Source: Acidobacteriota bacterium (GTDB lineage Bacteria; Acidobacteriota; Terriglobia; Bryobacterales; Bryobacteraceae). From it: 57,169 nucleotides of DNA. This document shows, in pieces, positions 32,784 through 37,043 of the stretch (positions are counted from its first letter, which is position 1; each line of letters opens with the position of its first letter). The notes under the pieces were generated by a model that ran no database searches, had not been told where the DNA came from, and saw only the letters and a program-made list of their open reading frames with translations. The DNA lies in the NCBI GenBank assembly GCA_016870995.1, contig VFZU01000022.1, positions 1-57,169 of the forward strand, given 5' to 3'. The translations under genes and the position numbers were made by a program.

Positions 32784-35474
32784 ATGCCGCCCATTCGCGC
32801 TCTTCATTCCGGTGATTTATTTGGCCACTACCGCTTGGAGCAGCCACTCGGGGGTGGCGGCATGGGCGTGGTTTGGCGAGCTACCGATACCCGCCTGGGT
32901 CGCGGGGTGGCGATCAAGTTTCTTCCGGACGACTTTCATGAGGGCGGGGAAGTGCTTGAGCGATTCCGCCGCGAGGCACGCACAGCCAGCTCCCTGAATC
33001 ACCCCAACATCTGTATCGTCTACGACATTGGGGAAGATCACAATCGACCCTTCCTGGTGATGGAGCTGCTCGAAGGCAAAACCCTTCGCCAGTTTCTACA
33101 GGATCGCCCGCTCCGCGTTGGCGAAATCCTCGATGTTGGCCTTCAAGTCGCCGACGCCCTCGATGCGGCCCACCAGCAATCGATCATTCATCGCGACATC
33201 AAACCAGCCAACCTGTTCGTCCTTGAGAAATCGGGGGTTGGCATTCAAGCCAAACTACTTGATTTCGGTCTCGCCAAACGCGACATGCTGAATTGGGACT
33301 CTTCGACGATGACGGCTTTTCGCACAGACAGCGGAGTCGCCATCGGTACCGCAGCTTATATGAGCCCCGAGCAGGCTCTGGGTCAAACCATCGACGCTCG
33401 TAGCGACCTGTTCAGCTTCGGCATGGTTTTGTATGAGATGGCAACCCGCACGCTGCCTTTTCGAGGGGTCACCAGTGCTGCCCTCTTCGATGCCATTCTG
33501 AACAAGGCTCCGGCCAGTCTACTGGCCGCCAATCCCGAAGCTCCGGCGGAGCTCGAACGCATCATCCTCAAATTGCTTGAGAAGGATCCTGCCCTTCGTT
33601 ACCAAAGCGCCGCCGAACTGCGCACAGACCTTTCTCGGCTCAAACGCGATCTCAGTTCCCCCACGACAAACCGCCGCACGGCGCTTGAAAACTCGCACTC
33701 TCGCCTGCCCTTATGGTCTCGCGCTCCAGCCCAAGCCGCTTTCGCGGGCTTCGTCTTCGTCCTCGTGGTCTTCGCGGCCTGGCTTGCGATTCGCAGCCGC
33801 CCCGGCGCGGCCCCCCTAGAATTTGAGAGCGCCAGCTTCCGCGCGCTTACCGAGACCTCGCATGCCGAGTTCTTCCCTCAGATCAGCCCCGACGGGCGAA
33901 GCCTGGTCTACGCAAGCAACCAGCGTGGCAATTGGGACTTATTTTTGCTCGACACGGAGTCGCGTCAACCGCGCCTGCTGACGGAGTCAAACACTACTGA
34001 CGACACGGAGCCCGCGCTCTCGCCCGATGGCAACATAATAGCTTTCCGCAGCGAGCGTGACGGCGGCGGCATCTTCTTGTATGACCTTCGTGACAACAAG
34101 ATCCGCAAGCTCAGCCCGATCGGCCACAACCCTGCCTGGAGCCCCGACGCCACCGAAATCGTTTGCGCCACCGAGGGCATCATTCGACCAGAAGACCGCT
34201 ACACCACCGCAAGCCAACTCTGGGCGATCCGTGTCGACAATGGTGCACGCCGCCTCGTCTACAAGGGCGACGCTGTGCAGCCGCATTGGAGCCCGAATGG
34301 CGAACGCATCGCCTTCTGGGCTTCGCGCTCCGGCCAGCGCGATTTGTTCACAGTGCGCGCCCGACCCCGCAACGGTATCACTCCCGAACCAGTAGCGCTC
34401 TTGAGTGACCCATCGGTCGATTGGAATCCTGTCTTCAGCCCGGACGGAATCTTCCTCTACTTCCTCAGCGATCGCGATGGCAAGATGAGCCTCTGGCGCA
34501 TGCGCATCGACGCCGATAGCGGAGAAGCCCTTGGCTCTCCCGAAGCGGTTCATCTGCCCGTCGATGAAGTGGCTCACATCAGCTTTAGTCGCGATGGCCG
34601 ACGCATCGCATTCGTGCAATATGCACTGCTCGCCAACATCTATCGTGTCCGCTTCGATCCGAAAAACGAACAGCTCGAATCTGCGCCAGAGCCACTCACT
34701 CGAGGTAAAGTCCCCTTCACCCGTCCCGATCTCAGCGCCAACGGATTGTGGCTCACCTTCAGCTCTCAAACCAGCCGCGAAAATTTATTCGTACTCGGCA
34801 CGGATGGCTCGGGTTTCCGCCAGTTGACCGACGAGCAATACAAGGACCGCGGCCCTCGCTGGAGCCCCGACGGCAAACGACTCGCCTTCTTTTCAAACCG
34901 CAGCGGAGCCTGGGAAATATGGACCTACACAATGGACGGTGGCGGCCTTCAGCAGCTCACACGCGGGGCAACAGGCACGACTGCCTGGCCAGTCTGGAGC
35001 CCCGATGGCAAGCGCCTTGCCTACACGATCTTCGGATTCAACAGTTTTCTGCTCGATCCCAGCCGCCGCTGGAATGAACAAAGTCCGCAAGCCTTGCCGC
35101 CGATGGAGACGCAGAACGAAATGTTCTCTGCCTGGCATTGGAGTCCCGATGGCCAGCGGATCGCCGGCTTTAACCAACAAGCCGAAGGTGCCATCTCAGG
35201 AATCGCATCATTCGATCTTCGCGATTCCAAATTCACGAAGTGGAGCGATGTCGGCCAGGACCCTCATTGGCTCGCCGATTCCAAGCGCCTTTTCTTTGTT
35301 CACGAGGGCAAAATCTGGCTTCTCCATACGGAGACTGGCGTGCGCCGCATTGTCGTTCAATCGAAAGACTGGGACGTCGAACGTCGTGGCATTGCAGCCA
35401 GCAAAGACAACCAGTGGATTTACTTCAGCGGCTCCCGCAGCGAATCTGAAGTCTGGCTCGGCGTCGTCGAATAG
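32784..35474 (+). CDS. Membrane serine/threonine kinase with PD40 beta-propeller
   Basis: This 896-residue protein has an N-terminal eukaryotic-type kinase with a glycine loop (LGGGGMGVVW), catalytic Lys45, HRDIKPAN (Asp138) and DFG at 160-162, then YMSPEQ. One membrane helix at about 318-336 follows. The outer half holds about eleven WD40-like/TolB-type repeats with the pattern WSPDGKRLAF. The layout suggests that an external propeller controls an inner kinase domain. This architecture is common in Acidobacteriota. ATG 32784 is chosen because the kinase begins right after it. The last 55 bp overlap the FadB-like gene. Confidence 0.9.
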   Translation: MPPIRALHSGDLFGHYRLEQPLGGGGMGVVWRATDTRLGRGVAIKFLPDDFHEGGEVLERFRREARTASSLNHPNICIVYDIGEDHNRPFLVMELLEGKTLRQFLQDRPLRVGEILDVGLQVADALDAAHQQSIIHRDIKPANLFVLEKSGVGIQAKLLDFGLAKRDMLNWDSSTMTAFRTDSGVAIGTAAYMSPEQALGQTIDARSDLFSFGMVLYEMATRTLPFRGVTSAALFDAILNKAPASLLAANPEAPAELERIILKLLEKDPALRYQSAAELRTDLSRLKRDLSSPTTNRRTALENSHSRLPLWSRAPAQAAFAGFVFVLVVFAAWLAIRSRPGAAPLEFESASFRALTETSHAEFFPQISPDGRSLVYASNQRGNWDLFLLDTESRQPRLLTESNTTDDTEPALSPDGNIIAFRSERDGGGIFLYDLRDNKIRKLSPIGHNPAWSPDATEIVCATEGIIRPEDRYTTASQLWAIRVDNGARRLVYKGDAVQPHWSPNGERIAFWASRSGQRDLFTVRARPRNGITPEPVALLSDPSVDWNPVFSPDGIFLYFLSDRDGKMSLWRMRIDADSGEALGSPEAVHLPVDEVAHISFSRDGRRIAFVQYALLANIYRVRFDPKNEQLESAPEPLTRGKVPFTRPDLSANGLWLTFSSQTSRENLFVLGTDGSGFRQLTDEQYKDRGPRWSPDGKRLAFFSNRSGAWEIWTYTMDGGGLQQLTRGATGTTAWPVWSPDGKRLAYTIFGFNSFLLDPSRRWNEQSPQALPPMETQNEMFSAWHWSPDGQRIAGFNQQAEGAISGIASFDLRDSKFTKWSDVGQDPHWLADSKRLFFVHEGKIWLLHTETGVRRIVVQSKDWDVERRGIAASKDNQWIYFSGSRSESEVWLGVVE

Positions 35475-36577
35475 CGAAACATCGGTCCACCCAGTTCCTC
35501 AGGGTATCCGTAACCTCTCACCATCAACACGTCCAGATCACTGGCCCGCAATGTTTTTCCTTCTTTCACCAACCGCTCGCCCGTAGACGCGTCCAGGTCC
35601 TCTCGGCCCAACCATTCCCCTTGGCACACTACAGCCAATTTGCCTTGCTTGCGCAGAAACTCAAGCGTGGCCGCCAGATCCTCGAGCGATGTCATTGATC
35701 GCCTCATCACCTCCACCACCGCCCCATTCGGACTCTCACGCATCTCGCATCGTGCTTCTCCCGCGAGCCCCTTCGGCAATCCGGCGATCTTGCCGAGCTC
35801 CCTTTCGGCAAAAAACAGATAAACCATTGCTCTCGCCTGTTCATCGAGAAGTGCTTCCCGAAACAGTTTTGCCTCCACAGCCAATCCTTCTTCGAATTCC
35901 AAATACGCCGCACGAATCGCCTCAATGGCTTTTTGCTGCGATCGGATGCGCCAGCTCGATCGGTCCCAATCCGAGTAGGGTGCGCAGGTCATCAAGTCCG
36001 TCCGTCGCCCTTGCTCGATCTGGAGCGCTCTCGCCACCACATCCCCATCGCTCAACGCATCCACAATCCCGAGCTTCAAGGCTTCTTCTGCCTTCACAAC
36101 ATCGCCGCCCAGGATCATTCGCAGCGCTGTTTCCACACCAGCCAGACGCGGCAACCGCTGTGTCCCTCCAGCGCCTGGAAAAAGGCCCAACTTCACTTCT
36201 GGCAACCCAACAAAGGCTTTACGTTCGAGCACGCGGTAGTGACCCGCCATGGCCAACTCAAGGCCAATTCCCAAGGCTCCCCCATTCATCGCCATCACCA
36301 CGAGTTTTCCAGACCTCTCAATCATCGAAAGCAAATCATTGAGATAACTCAAGTCGGGCGCGAGTTCTCCGCGTGTGATCCGCTCGATCTCTCGAATGTC
36401 CGCCCCGGCAACAAACATCTTGCCGCTGCCTGTCAATACGATTTTGCTCGCATCCGTTTCGGTCCAAGCCGTTCGCAGCGCCTCGGCCAACTCCCGCGAC
36501 AAAGCGTTCACCGGTGGGTTCATCATGGTAAGGATGGCTGCGGATTCCTTGCGTTCCACACTGACGAGACGGTCCAT
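35420..36577 (-). CDS. Enoyl-CoA hydratase fused to remnants of a FadB-type dehydrogenase
   Basis: Residues 1-190 are a complete crotonase domain. The oxyanion-hole and catalytic regions are GKMFVAGADIRE, GIGLELAMAGHY (Glu108) and GLPEVKLGLFPGAGGTQRLPR (Glu127). After the linker FFAERELGKIAGLPKG, the protein lacks the NAD-binding GxGxMG region of multifunctional FadB proteins. It keeps only short matches to later parts: VVEVMRRSMTSLEDLA near 288-301 and DLDVLMVRGYGYPEELGGPMF near 347-367. It is 385 residues rather than about 700. It may still hydrate enoyl-CoA but should not oxidise 3-hydroxyacyl-CoA. Its ATG at 36577 overlaps the start codon of the opposite gene. Confidence 0.82.
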   Translation of the reverse strand: MDRLVSVERKESAAILTMMNPPVNALSRELAEALRTAWTETDASKIVLTGSGKMFVAGADIREIERITRGELAPDLSYLNDLLSMIERSGKLVVMAMNGGALGIGLELAMAGHYRVLERKAFVGLPEVKLGLFPGAGGTQRLPRLAGVETALRMILGGDVVKAEEALKLGIVDALSDGDVVARALQIEQGRRTDLMTCAPYSDWDRSSWRIRSQQKAIEAIRAAYLEFEEGLAVEAKLFREALLDEQARAMVYLFFAERELGKIAGLPKGLAGEARCEMRESPNGAVVEVMRRSMTSLEDLAATLEFLRKQGKLAVVCQGEWLGREDLDASTGERLVKEGKTLRASDLDVLMVRGYGYPEELGGPMFRYSTTPSQTSDSLREPLK

Positions 36578-37043
36578 GCTTCTGACGCTACCACTCACCT
36601 TGCGAGCCGTCGACTCGATCCGCCTCTATGTCTTCCTCGCCACGGCGTGTCCGATCTCCAACCGCTACATCCCAGAACTCAACCGCATCGCAGCCACCTA
36701 CCAGCCCAAAGGCGTTCGGATTCAGGCATGCTTCCCAGAGTCTGATCTCACGCAGCAAGCCCTCGACGCTTGGGCACGCGAATACAAGCCGGCCTTCGCA
36801 TTCAAGCTCGATCCGCATGCGGTTCAGGCCCACGAGCTTCGCGCAACCCTCACCCCTGAAGCGGTCATCGTTCAGGGCGGCAGGCTCGTCTATCGTGGTC
36901 GCATTGATGACCGCTACGTCTCCTGGGGTAAGTCGCGCCCGCAACCAGCCCGGCGCGATGTAGTTAAAGTTCTCGATGAACTACTCGCGGGTCGTAGCCC
37001 AGCTGCACGCTTCACTAAGGCTTGGGGCTGTGTGATCGAATAG
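36576..37043 (+). CDS. Thioredoxin-fold redoxin-like protein
   Basis: The 155-residue protein resembles AhpC/TSA-type redoxins, with FLATACPISNRYIPELNRIA around residues 15-35. The redox site is CPIS, so only the first cysteine of the usual CxxC is present. The C-terminal TPEAVIVQGGRLVYRGRIDDRYVSWG is typical of the redoxin domain found next to cytochrome c monooxygenases in this phylum. The start is unsure: ATG 36576 shares a CATG with the divergent gene. ATGs at 36525 and 36534 would add an RRSMLL stretch like a Tat signal. Confidence 0.65.
   Translation: MLLTLPLTLRAVDSIRLYVFLATACPISNRYIPELNRIAATYQPKGVRIQACFPESDLTQQALDAWAREYKPAFAFKLDPHAVQAHELRATLTPEAVIVQGGRLVYRGRIDDRYVSWGKSRPQPARRDVVKVLDELLAGRSPAARFTKAWGCVIE

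Follow-up and report, generated by a model that had tools for sequence, protein, structure and literature searches.

Introduction

Fusions of enoyl-coenzyme A (CoA) hydratase and 3-hydroxyacyl-CoA dehydrogenase are well known, and the MFE1, FadB and FadJ proteins (rat MFE1, PDB 2x58; FadB, 1wdk) are the closest described relatives of the gene examined here. This crotonase-like gene lies on a 57,169-nucleotide stretch of contig VFZU01000022.1 (the whole stretch is hereafter called the window) from an Acidobacteriota bacterium of the family Bryobacteraceae, and it appears to descend from such a bifunctional protein by loss of the dehydrogenase half. The window protein shares with MFE1, FadB and FadJ a crotonase domain bearing both catalytic glutamates, the helix-10 motif and the order of its sequence blocks, and these proteins are its best structural matches. 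In contrast to them, it lacks the NAD motif, the dehydrogenase residues Ser410, His431 and Asn481, and almost the whole of domains C and D, and its last domain is down to one segment. Monofunctional enoyl-CoA hydratases/crotonases (PF00378) likewise have the domain and both glutamates, and one orthologue of the gene is of their ordinary size; unlike them, the window protein carries a tail of about 110 MFE1-derived residues and an isoleucine in place of the oxyanion-hole glycine.

Published passages on rat MFE1 describe its domain B as helix-10 of the crotonase fold, with Phe271 and Lys275 contacting CoA and Glu274 bound to Arg657 of domain E, which holds and stabilises the linker helix (PMC5715344, PMC10988713). 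According to PMC5715344, the rat hydratase is fully active without domain C and inactive in constructs without domains D/E, and its oxyanion hole consists of N(Ala61) and N(Gly100); a passage of PMC13126182 describes the hole as built from main-chain NH groups. In the laboratory, Kiema et al. 2002 deleted domain C from rat MFE1 (as cited in PMC5715344). As far as that citation describes it, the mutant resembles the window protein in having lost domain C and kept the hydratase half with helix-10. The window form differs in being natural, in retaining the end of domain C, and in lacking domain D and most of domain E, which the laboratory constructs needed. A literature search that covered few subscription papers found no natural MFE1 or FadB without its dehydrogenase half.

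Composition of the short protein

As the initial annotation had described, the gene is an open frame without a dehydrogenase core (385 codons; ATG at 36577, stop at 35420-35422, minus strand). Pfam ECH_1 (PF00378) matches residues 9-182 (E 5e-35; 121.4 bits against a gathering cut-off of 27), and from 3HCDH_N just model positions 146-178 of 180 align, at residues 287-319 and under the cut-off (E 0.035). The scores required by the curated equivalog models were missed both for FadJ (155.3 bits, 869 needed) and for FadB (128.7 bits, 870 needed). In a phmmer search of the PDB, the protein aligned with rat MFE1 in three collinear stretches (11-189, 217-272 and 334-370), of which the second and third are weak when taken singly (independent E-values, i-E, of 1.4 and 0.01). 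On a reference profile of 693 positions built from 14 full-length multifunctional protein (MFP) relatives of the same family, it occupies positions 1-288, 441-472 and 616-654, so that the two tail blocks noticed earlier do align collinearly with full-length proteins. The proposed loss of about 300 residues is real but divided: profile positions are missing in two internal gaps (about 150 and about 140) and at the C-terminus (about 40).

The block from the end of the NAD-binding domain (C block) occupies the same profile positions in three further genomes of the genus (G167, G175 and G146). When it was scored alone, the number of shuffles out of 2000 that equalled or exceeded the real block was 0 for the window genome (G000), 3 for G167, 0 for G175, 0 for G146 and 14 for G129. 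The block from the last domain (E block) was aligned by hhalign (E 2.4e-11 across 37 columns), which did not report the C block. Block order on the profile, together with the shuffles, rules out a chance resemblance of the tail. In each of the six genus sequences, among them a fragment (G146) and a tail-less protein (G055), the columns of the GxGxxG NAD motif are deleted or degenerate and those of the dehydrogenase residues (rat Ser410, His431 and Asn481) are empty. The Ser434 and Glu443 columns, judged by spacing, are still occupied in the remnant.

Occurrence and phylogeny in the genus

Our genus sample comprised eight genomes including that of the window. The short form occurs in G000, G167, G175 and G129, and as a fragment in G146, where the contig ends within the crotonase gene with the kinase gene alongside; a single-genome oddity is thereby ruled out. 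The G055 orthologue has 254 residues, gives no tail match and is covered nearly end to end by ECH_1 (5-245 of 251). In G129 the tail has decayed, much of the linker is missing and a degenerate stretch occupies the site of the former NAD motif. No close match was found in G104 or in G158, the latter being 79% complete and so saying little.

In five genomes (G000, G167, G175, G055 and G129) the gene is flanked by a kinase-PD40 gene and a redoxin-like gene; in G055 and G129 an extra gene separates it from the kinase. The orthologous contig of G104 (9.3 kb) still has an orthologue of the kinase (78%) and the genes upstream of it, but neither the crotonase nor the redoxin gene was found there, even in part. 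We rejected the idea of a full-length relative at the same locus, as neither the locus kinase nor the redoxin was matched in the five neighbourhoods of full-length relatives.

In two trees the five short forms of the genus make up one clade on a long stem (support 99/95 and 100/99). G129, a long branch of deviant composition, falls outside the other four at values under our strict bar (90/85 and 94/89), and G055 groups with G175 (94/93 and 98/94); if the tree is right, the tail of G055 was lost within the genus. Alignment, tree and synteny together show that the dehydrogenase half of an MFE1/FadB-type bifunctional protein was lost in an ancestor of the genus. A truncation shared with the 643-645 aa relatives of the g12 and g70 groups was rejected, since the tree separates those two and groups the short forms with neither. 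The full-length MFPs of these groups stop shortly past GGPM, without the usual last 40-60 residues. Because the trees place the two groups apart, this C-terminal shortening may have occurred twice.

Of 237 family genomes, five had a listed match that spans the whole tail profile, and each of these belongs to this genus; the other family genomes comprise 133 with a match, none listed spanning the profile, and 99 without one. Among 396 sampled phylum genomes, the full span was found in the window genome only. A plasmid match covering 84% of the query was discarded as a long protein with both halves (684-aa frame). Scans of viral contigs returned one locus, an MFP-like crotonase (229-1137) that ceases to match just past helix-10 (profile 4-281). 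It overlaps the end of a terminase-like frame and is perhaps a prophage edge in a fadB gene.

A second short form outside the genus

The search for the same short architecture elsewhere, which the initial annotation had proposed, succeeded in the other genus genomes and once in another genus (g25), so that confinement to one genus is overturned. This genome, G170, was found on re-checking 16 regions, mostly with short frames, from the tail-profile match lists. It encodes a closed 474-aa frame of the same layout, which aligns to profile positions 4-287, 422-494 (i-E 2e-8) and 581-652 and terminates just past GGPMF. The protein has both catalytic glutamate motifs, FFAQR at helix-10, alanine at the oxyanion-hole position and no GxGxxG; Pfam reports ECH_1 plus a weak 3HCDH trace. 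Full-length-size MFP frames are also present on other G170 contigs. It is closer to full-length relatives (at most 57% identity, measured over crotonase and linker) than to the genus short forms (32-41%, for aligned lengths above 280), and the tree places it among full-length proteins on a long branch (support 98/99). In these soil bacteria the dehydrogenase half seems to have been lost at least twice. Repeated loss with scraps retained suggests that the first half still depends on the scraps to stay together, and the same layout in G170 that the hydratase half needs just these pieces.

The remaining 15 regions were rejected as further cases or set apart. Eight (G018, G101, G121 twice, G153 twice, G211 and G236) are full-length MFPs cut by contig ends. 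Those of G307, G373, G573 and G334 match dehydrogenase positions 289-571 alone, that of G040 resembles a crotonase and matches helix-10 weakly, and that of G401 is a dehydrogenase in three frames. In the two-contig genome G145 (C1:8050800-8054300), a full-length MFP extends over two frames (profile 1-139 and 136-692), reflecting a frameshift or a sequencing error.

Selection on the tail

We fitted omega to the tail (residues 276-367) under the GY94 model. For G167-G146, the sole unsaturated pair, omega is 0.132 with a 95% upper bound of at most 0.25, and omega=1 is rejected (p 2.7e-11). Each of the six pairs drawn from G000, G167, G175 and G146 shows significant codon-position periodicity in the tail (p 7.2e-3 to 6.0e-7), and pairs with G129 give p 0.012 to 0.12. 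In a crude neutral simulation, the frame stayed open in 2.6-12.3% of runs per pair. By these substitution patterns the tail is under purifying selection; neither a failure of the tail to align nor a form unique to one genome under relaxed selection, the two observations that would have told against the earlier proposal, was found.

In the three pairs formed by G000, G167 and G175, C-block identity divided by hydratase identity gives 0.52-0.84, versus 0.80-1.28 (median 1.03) in 66 full-length pairs; the corresponding E-block ratio is 0.90-1.06, versus 0.89-1.34 (median 1.13). Pairs with G129 have C ratios of 0.44-0.58 and E ratios of 0.66-0.77.

Active site and structure model

Rat numbering was transferred through the phmmer alignment (chain index minus 5, anchored on Glu103 and Glu123). 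Both catalytic glutamates are present, as E107 and E127; the earlier assignment was right for the second, and the first is residue 107 rather than 108. The helix-10 equivalents are Phe255 (rat Phe271), Glu258 (Glu274) and Arg259 (Lys275). F255, F256 and R259 are invariant in all 18 aligned sequences, and by alignment and published passages F255 and R259 correspond to the helix-10 residues that contact pantetheine and pyrophosphate in rat MFE1. At the oxyanion-hole positions the window protein has Ala59 and Ile104. The isoleucine recurs in 5/5 genus short forms that cover the site, versus glycine in 25/25 full-length relatives examined. Because the hole uses main-chain NH groups, side chains are possibly tolerated there, and the Gly100-to-Ile change need not abolish activity. 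To call the hydratase complete, as the initial annotation did, is right for the two glutamates and too strong in view of Ile104 and the long stem branch.

We used a second AlphaFold model, based on seven aligned sequences (predicted local distance difference test, pLDDT, 65.2; predicted template modelling score, pTM, 0.62), and not the first (pLDDT 54.8). Its quality is fair to good in the crotonase part, moderate in the C remnant and poor in the E remnant. Helix 246-261, corresponding to helix-10, is present at low confidence. The model superposes on rat MFE1 with Z 28.1 and a root-mean-square deviation of 4.2 across 311 residues (model 3-325 on chain 0-481), a fit that one full-length MFP among the seven alignment rows may favour, and the superposition makes the C remnant coincide with the last part of domain C.

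Metabolic context

A complete beta-oxidation cycle is not evident in G000. PF00725 has no match in four of the eight genus genomes (G000, G104, G146 and G158), and PF02737 matches in G000 are merely partial (22-29 bits). Acyl-CoA dehydrogenases were matched in all eight, as was Thiolase_N, weakly and partially in G146; the G000 thiolase gene is of the PRK06064 kind. The window-protein query found one other crotonase in G000, and an acyl-CoA dehydrogenase gene lies about 1.4 kb away from it. The other four genomes (G055, G129, G167 and G175) have a 3-hydroxyacyl-CoA dehydrogenase-like gene that stands alone. We rejected the notion that the lost half was split off into this gene, which looks like another subfamily, judging from a scan of the G055 copy.

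Alternative explanations

We consider the product to be probably a monofunctional acyl-CoA hydratase/isomerase with a vestigial brace, derived from an MFE1/FadB-type protein. After the ancestral protein had lost its 3-hydroxyacyl-CoA dehydrogenase half, the remainder would act as an acyl-CoA hydratase or delta3-delta2 isomerase through the two glutamates of the crotonase domain, and helix-10 would keep closing the active site via Phe255 and Arg259. Published work on rat MFE1 and the conservation seen here suggest that the domain E piece was retained because the parent's domain E braces helix-10, and that the domain C piece would be mostly a spacer. Some genus lineages would later have lost the tail or the gene. 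An Arg657-type residue is absent at position 360, so the brace would have to work without the rat Glu274-Arg657 salt bridge; the position holds alanine in 10 of 12 full-length relatives. In favour of the proposal, the tail-less G055 protein has serine at the Glu274 position.

Several observations weigh against this proposal. The Gly100-to-Ile change could impair hydration. Position 360 is glutamate in G000, G167 and G175, proline in G129 and glutamine in G146, and the Glu274 position is glutamine in G170. Residues 336-385 are unfolded in the model (pLDDT mostly 27-45), with no helix-10 contact seen. G129 lacks much of the linker, and G104 does without the gene. Tail pairs other than G167-G146 are saturated (t 4 to 33) and show merely omega below 1. 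Better conservation of the E block than of the C block is also usual among full-length pairs (48 of 66), and in G175-G146 the C block is the higher (67 vs 63%). The region-trained codon score is -9 in G000 and -35 in G175, and +54 in G167 and +51 in G055; in G129 an antisense frame outscores the gene in codon use (121 vs 67); and a simple gene caller listed the crotonase gene in G167, G055 and G146 only. Finally, a single clade of G170 and the genus short forms is not rejected by the approximately unbiased test (p-AU 0.21).

Part of this evidence would also fit a gene that has been eroding slowly since beta-oxidation was abandoned, its tail a relic under weak residual constraint. The decayed tail of G129, the unfound tail of G055 and the gene missing from the G104 locus point this way, as do the long stem and the G129 and G055 branches, the unmatched PF00725 in half of the genus genomes, the atypical codon use in G000 and G175 and the C remnant, less conserved than in full-length relatives. 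Such erosion is nevertheless unlikely given the low tail omega and the periodicity in 6/6 pairs, an E remnant whose conservation in three genomes is close to that of the hydratase, the retained glutamates and helix-10 contacts, and the similar layout in G170, which also has full-length MFPs. The initial annotation's "retained, repurposed" protein "rather than decay" therefore stands as to retention and FadB/MFE1 descent; "repurposed" has no direct support, and the exclusion of decay was too clean in view of G129, G055 and G104.

The oxyanion-hole change might instead mark a new acyl-CoA reaction, isomerase-like or other, with the tail shaping a new pocket. Some enoyl-CoA isomerases have a residue other than glycine at the second oxyanion-hole position, and isoleucine throughout the genus forms, alanine in G170 and glycine in all full-length relatives would agree with this, as would the accelerated stem branch. 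The tolerance expected of a main-chain hole, the retention of both hydratase glutamates and a G129 crotonase paralogue with glutamate at that site (by eye) make it a rather improbable explanation. A deletion or chimera in the window contig has almost nothing to recommend it: the window genome is in 215 contigs, but the same architecture and locus recur in the G167, G175 and G129 assemblies and in the G146 contig-edge fragment, with substitutions and in-frame indels, and these orthologues refute an artefact.

Genomic neighbourhood and feature coordinates

In 5/5 genomes the crotonase and redoxin-like genes begin back to back, their start codons overlapping as CATG (window 36560-36600). The redoxin frame runs on upstream into the 5' end of the crotonase gene, where a TRR is conserved, and G129 has an ATG just before the TRR; the redoxin may thus begin inside the crotonase gene, antisense to it, and perhaps carry a Tat-like signal. 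An Rfam scan of the window gave 0 matches at gathering score.

Table 1. Coordinates of the crotonase-like gene, its parts and its neighbours in the window.
Feature	Position	Strand
Whole gene, 385 codons and stop; MFE1/FadB-derived crotonase without dehydrogenase	35420..36577	-
Residues 1-190, crotonase domain A	36008..36577	-
Glu107 (rat MFE1 Glu103)	36257-36259	-
Glu127 (rat MFE1 Glu123)	36197-36199	-
Ile104, in place of oxyanion-hole Gly100 of rat MFE1	36266-36268	-
Residues 191-272, linker domain B including helix-10	35762..36007	-
FFAER 255-259, equivalents of rat Phe271, Glu274 and Lys275	35801-35815	-
Residues 282-319, C remnant (end of the NAD-binding domain), modelled as strand-helix-strand	35621..35734	-
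Residues 332-367, remnant of last domain E, as far as GGPMF	35477..35584	-
Residues 368-385, genome-specific tail inside a 55-base overlap with the convergent kinase gene	35423..35476	-
Convergent protein kinase with PD40 repeats; neighbour conserved in the genus	32784..35474	+
Divergent redoxin-like gene (Pfam Redoxin under cut-off); conserved neighbour, start codon overlapping the crotonase start	36576..37043	+

Implications for the protein family

The second case in G170 makes the proposed brace slightly likelier, and with it a bolder but doubtful possibility: that these proteins are natural minimal forms of MFE1 which arose more than once, selection having stripped away the dehydrogenase and spared only the segments that steady helix-10, and which, with the change at the oxyanion hole (isoleucine; alanine in G170), became crotonases of altered chemistry. 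If this were true, the genus would keep the successive steps from a bifunctional protein through a monofunctional one to its loss. Laboratory deletions of rat MFE1 have so far been the way to ask how much of the dehydrogenase half, and which pieces of it, the hydratase half requires; the living series in this genus, together with G170, offers a ready test of that question.

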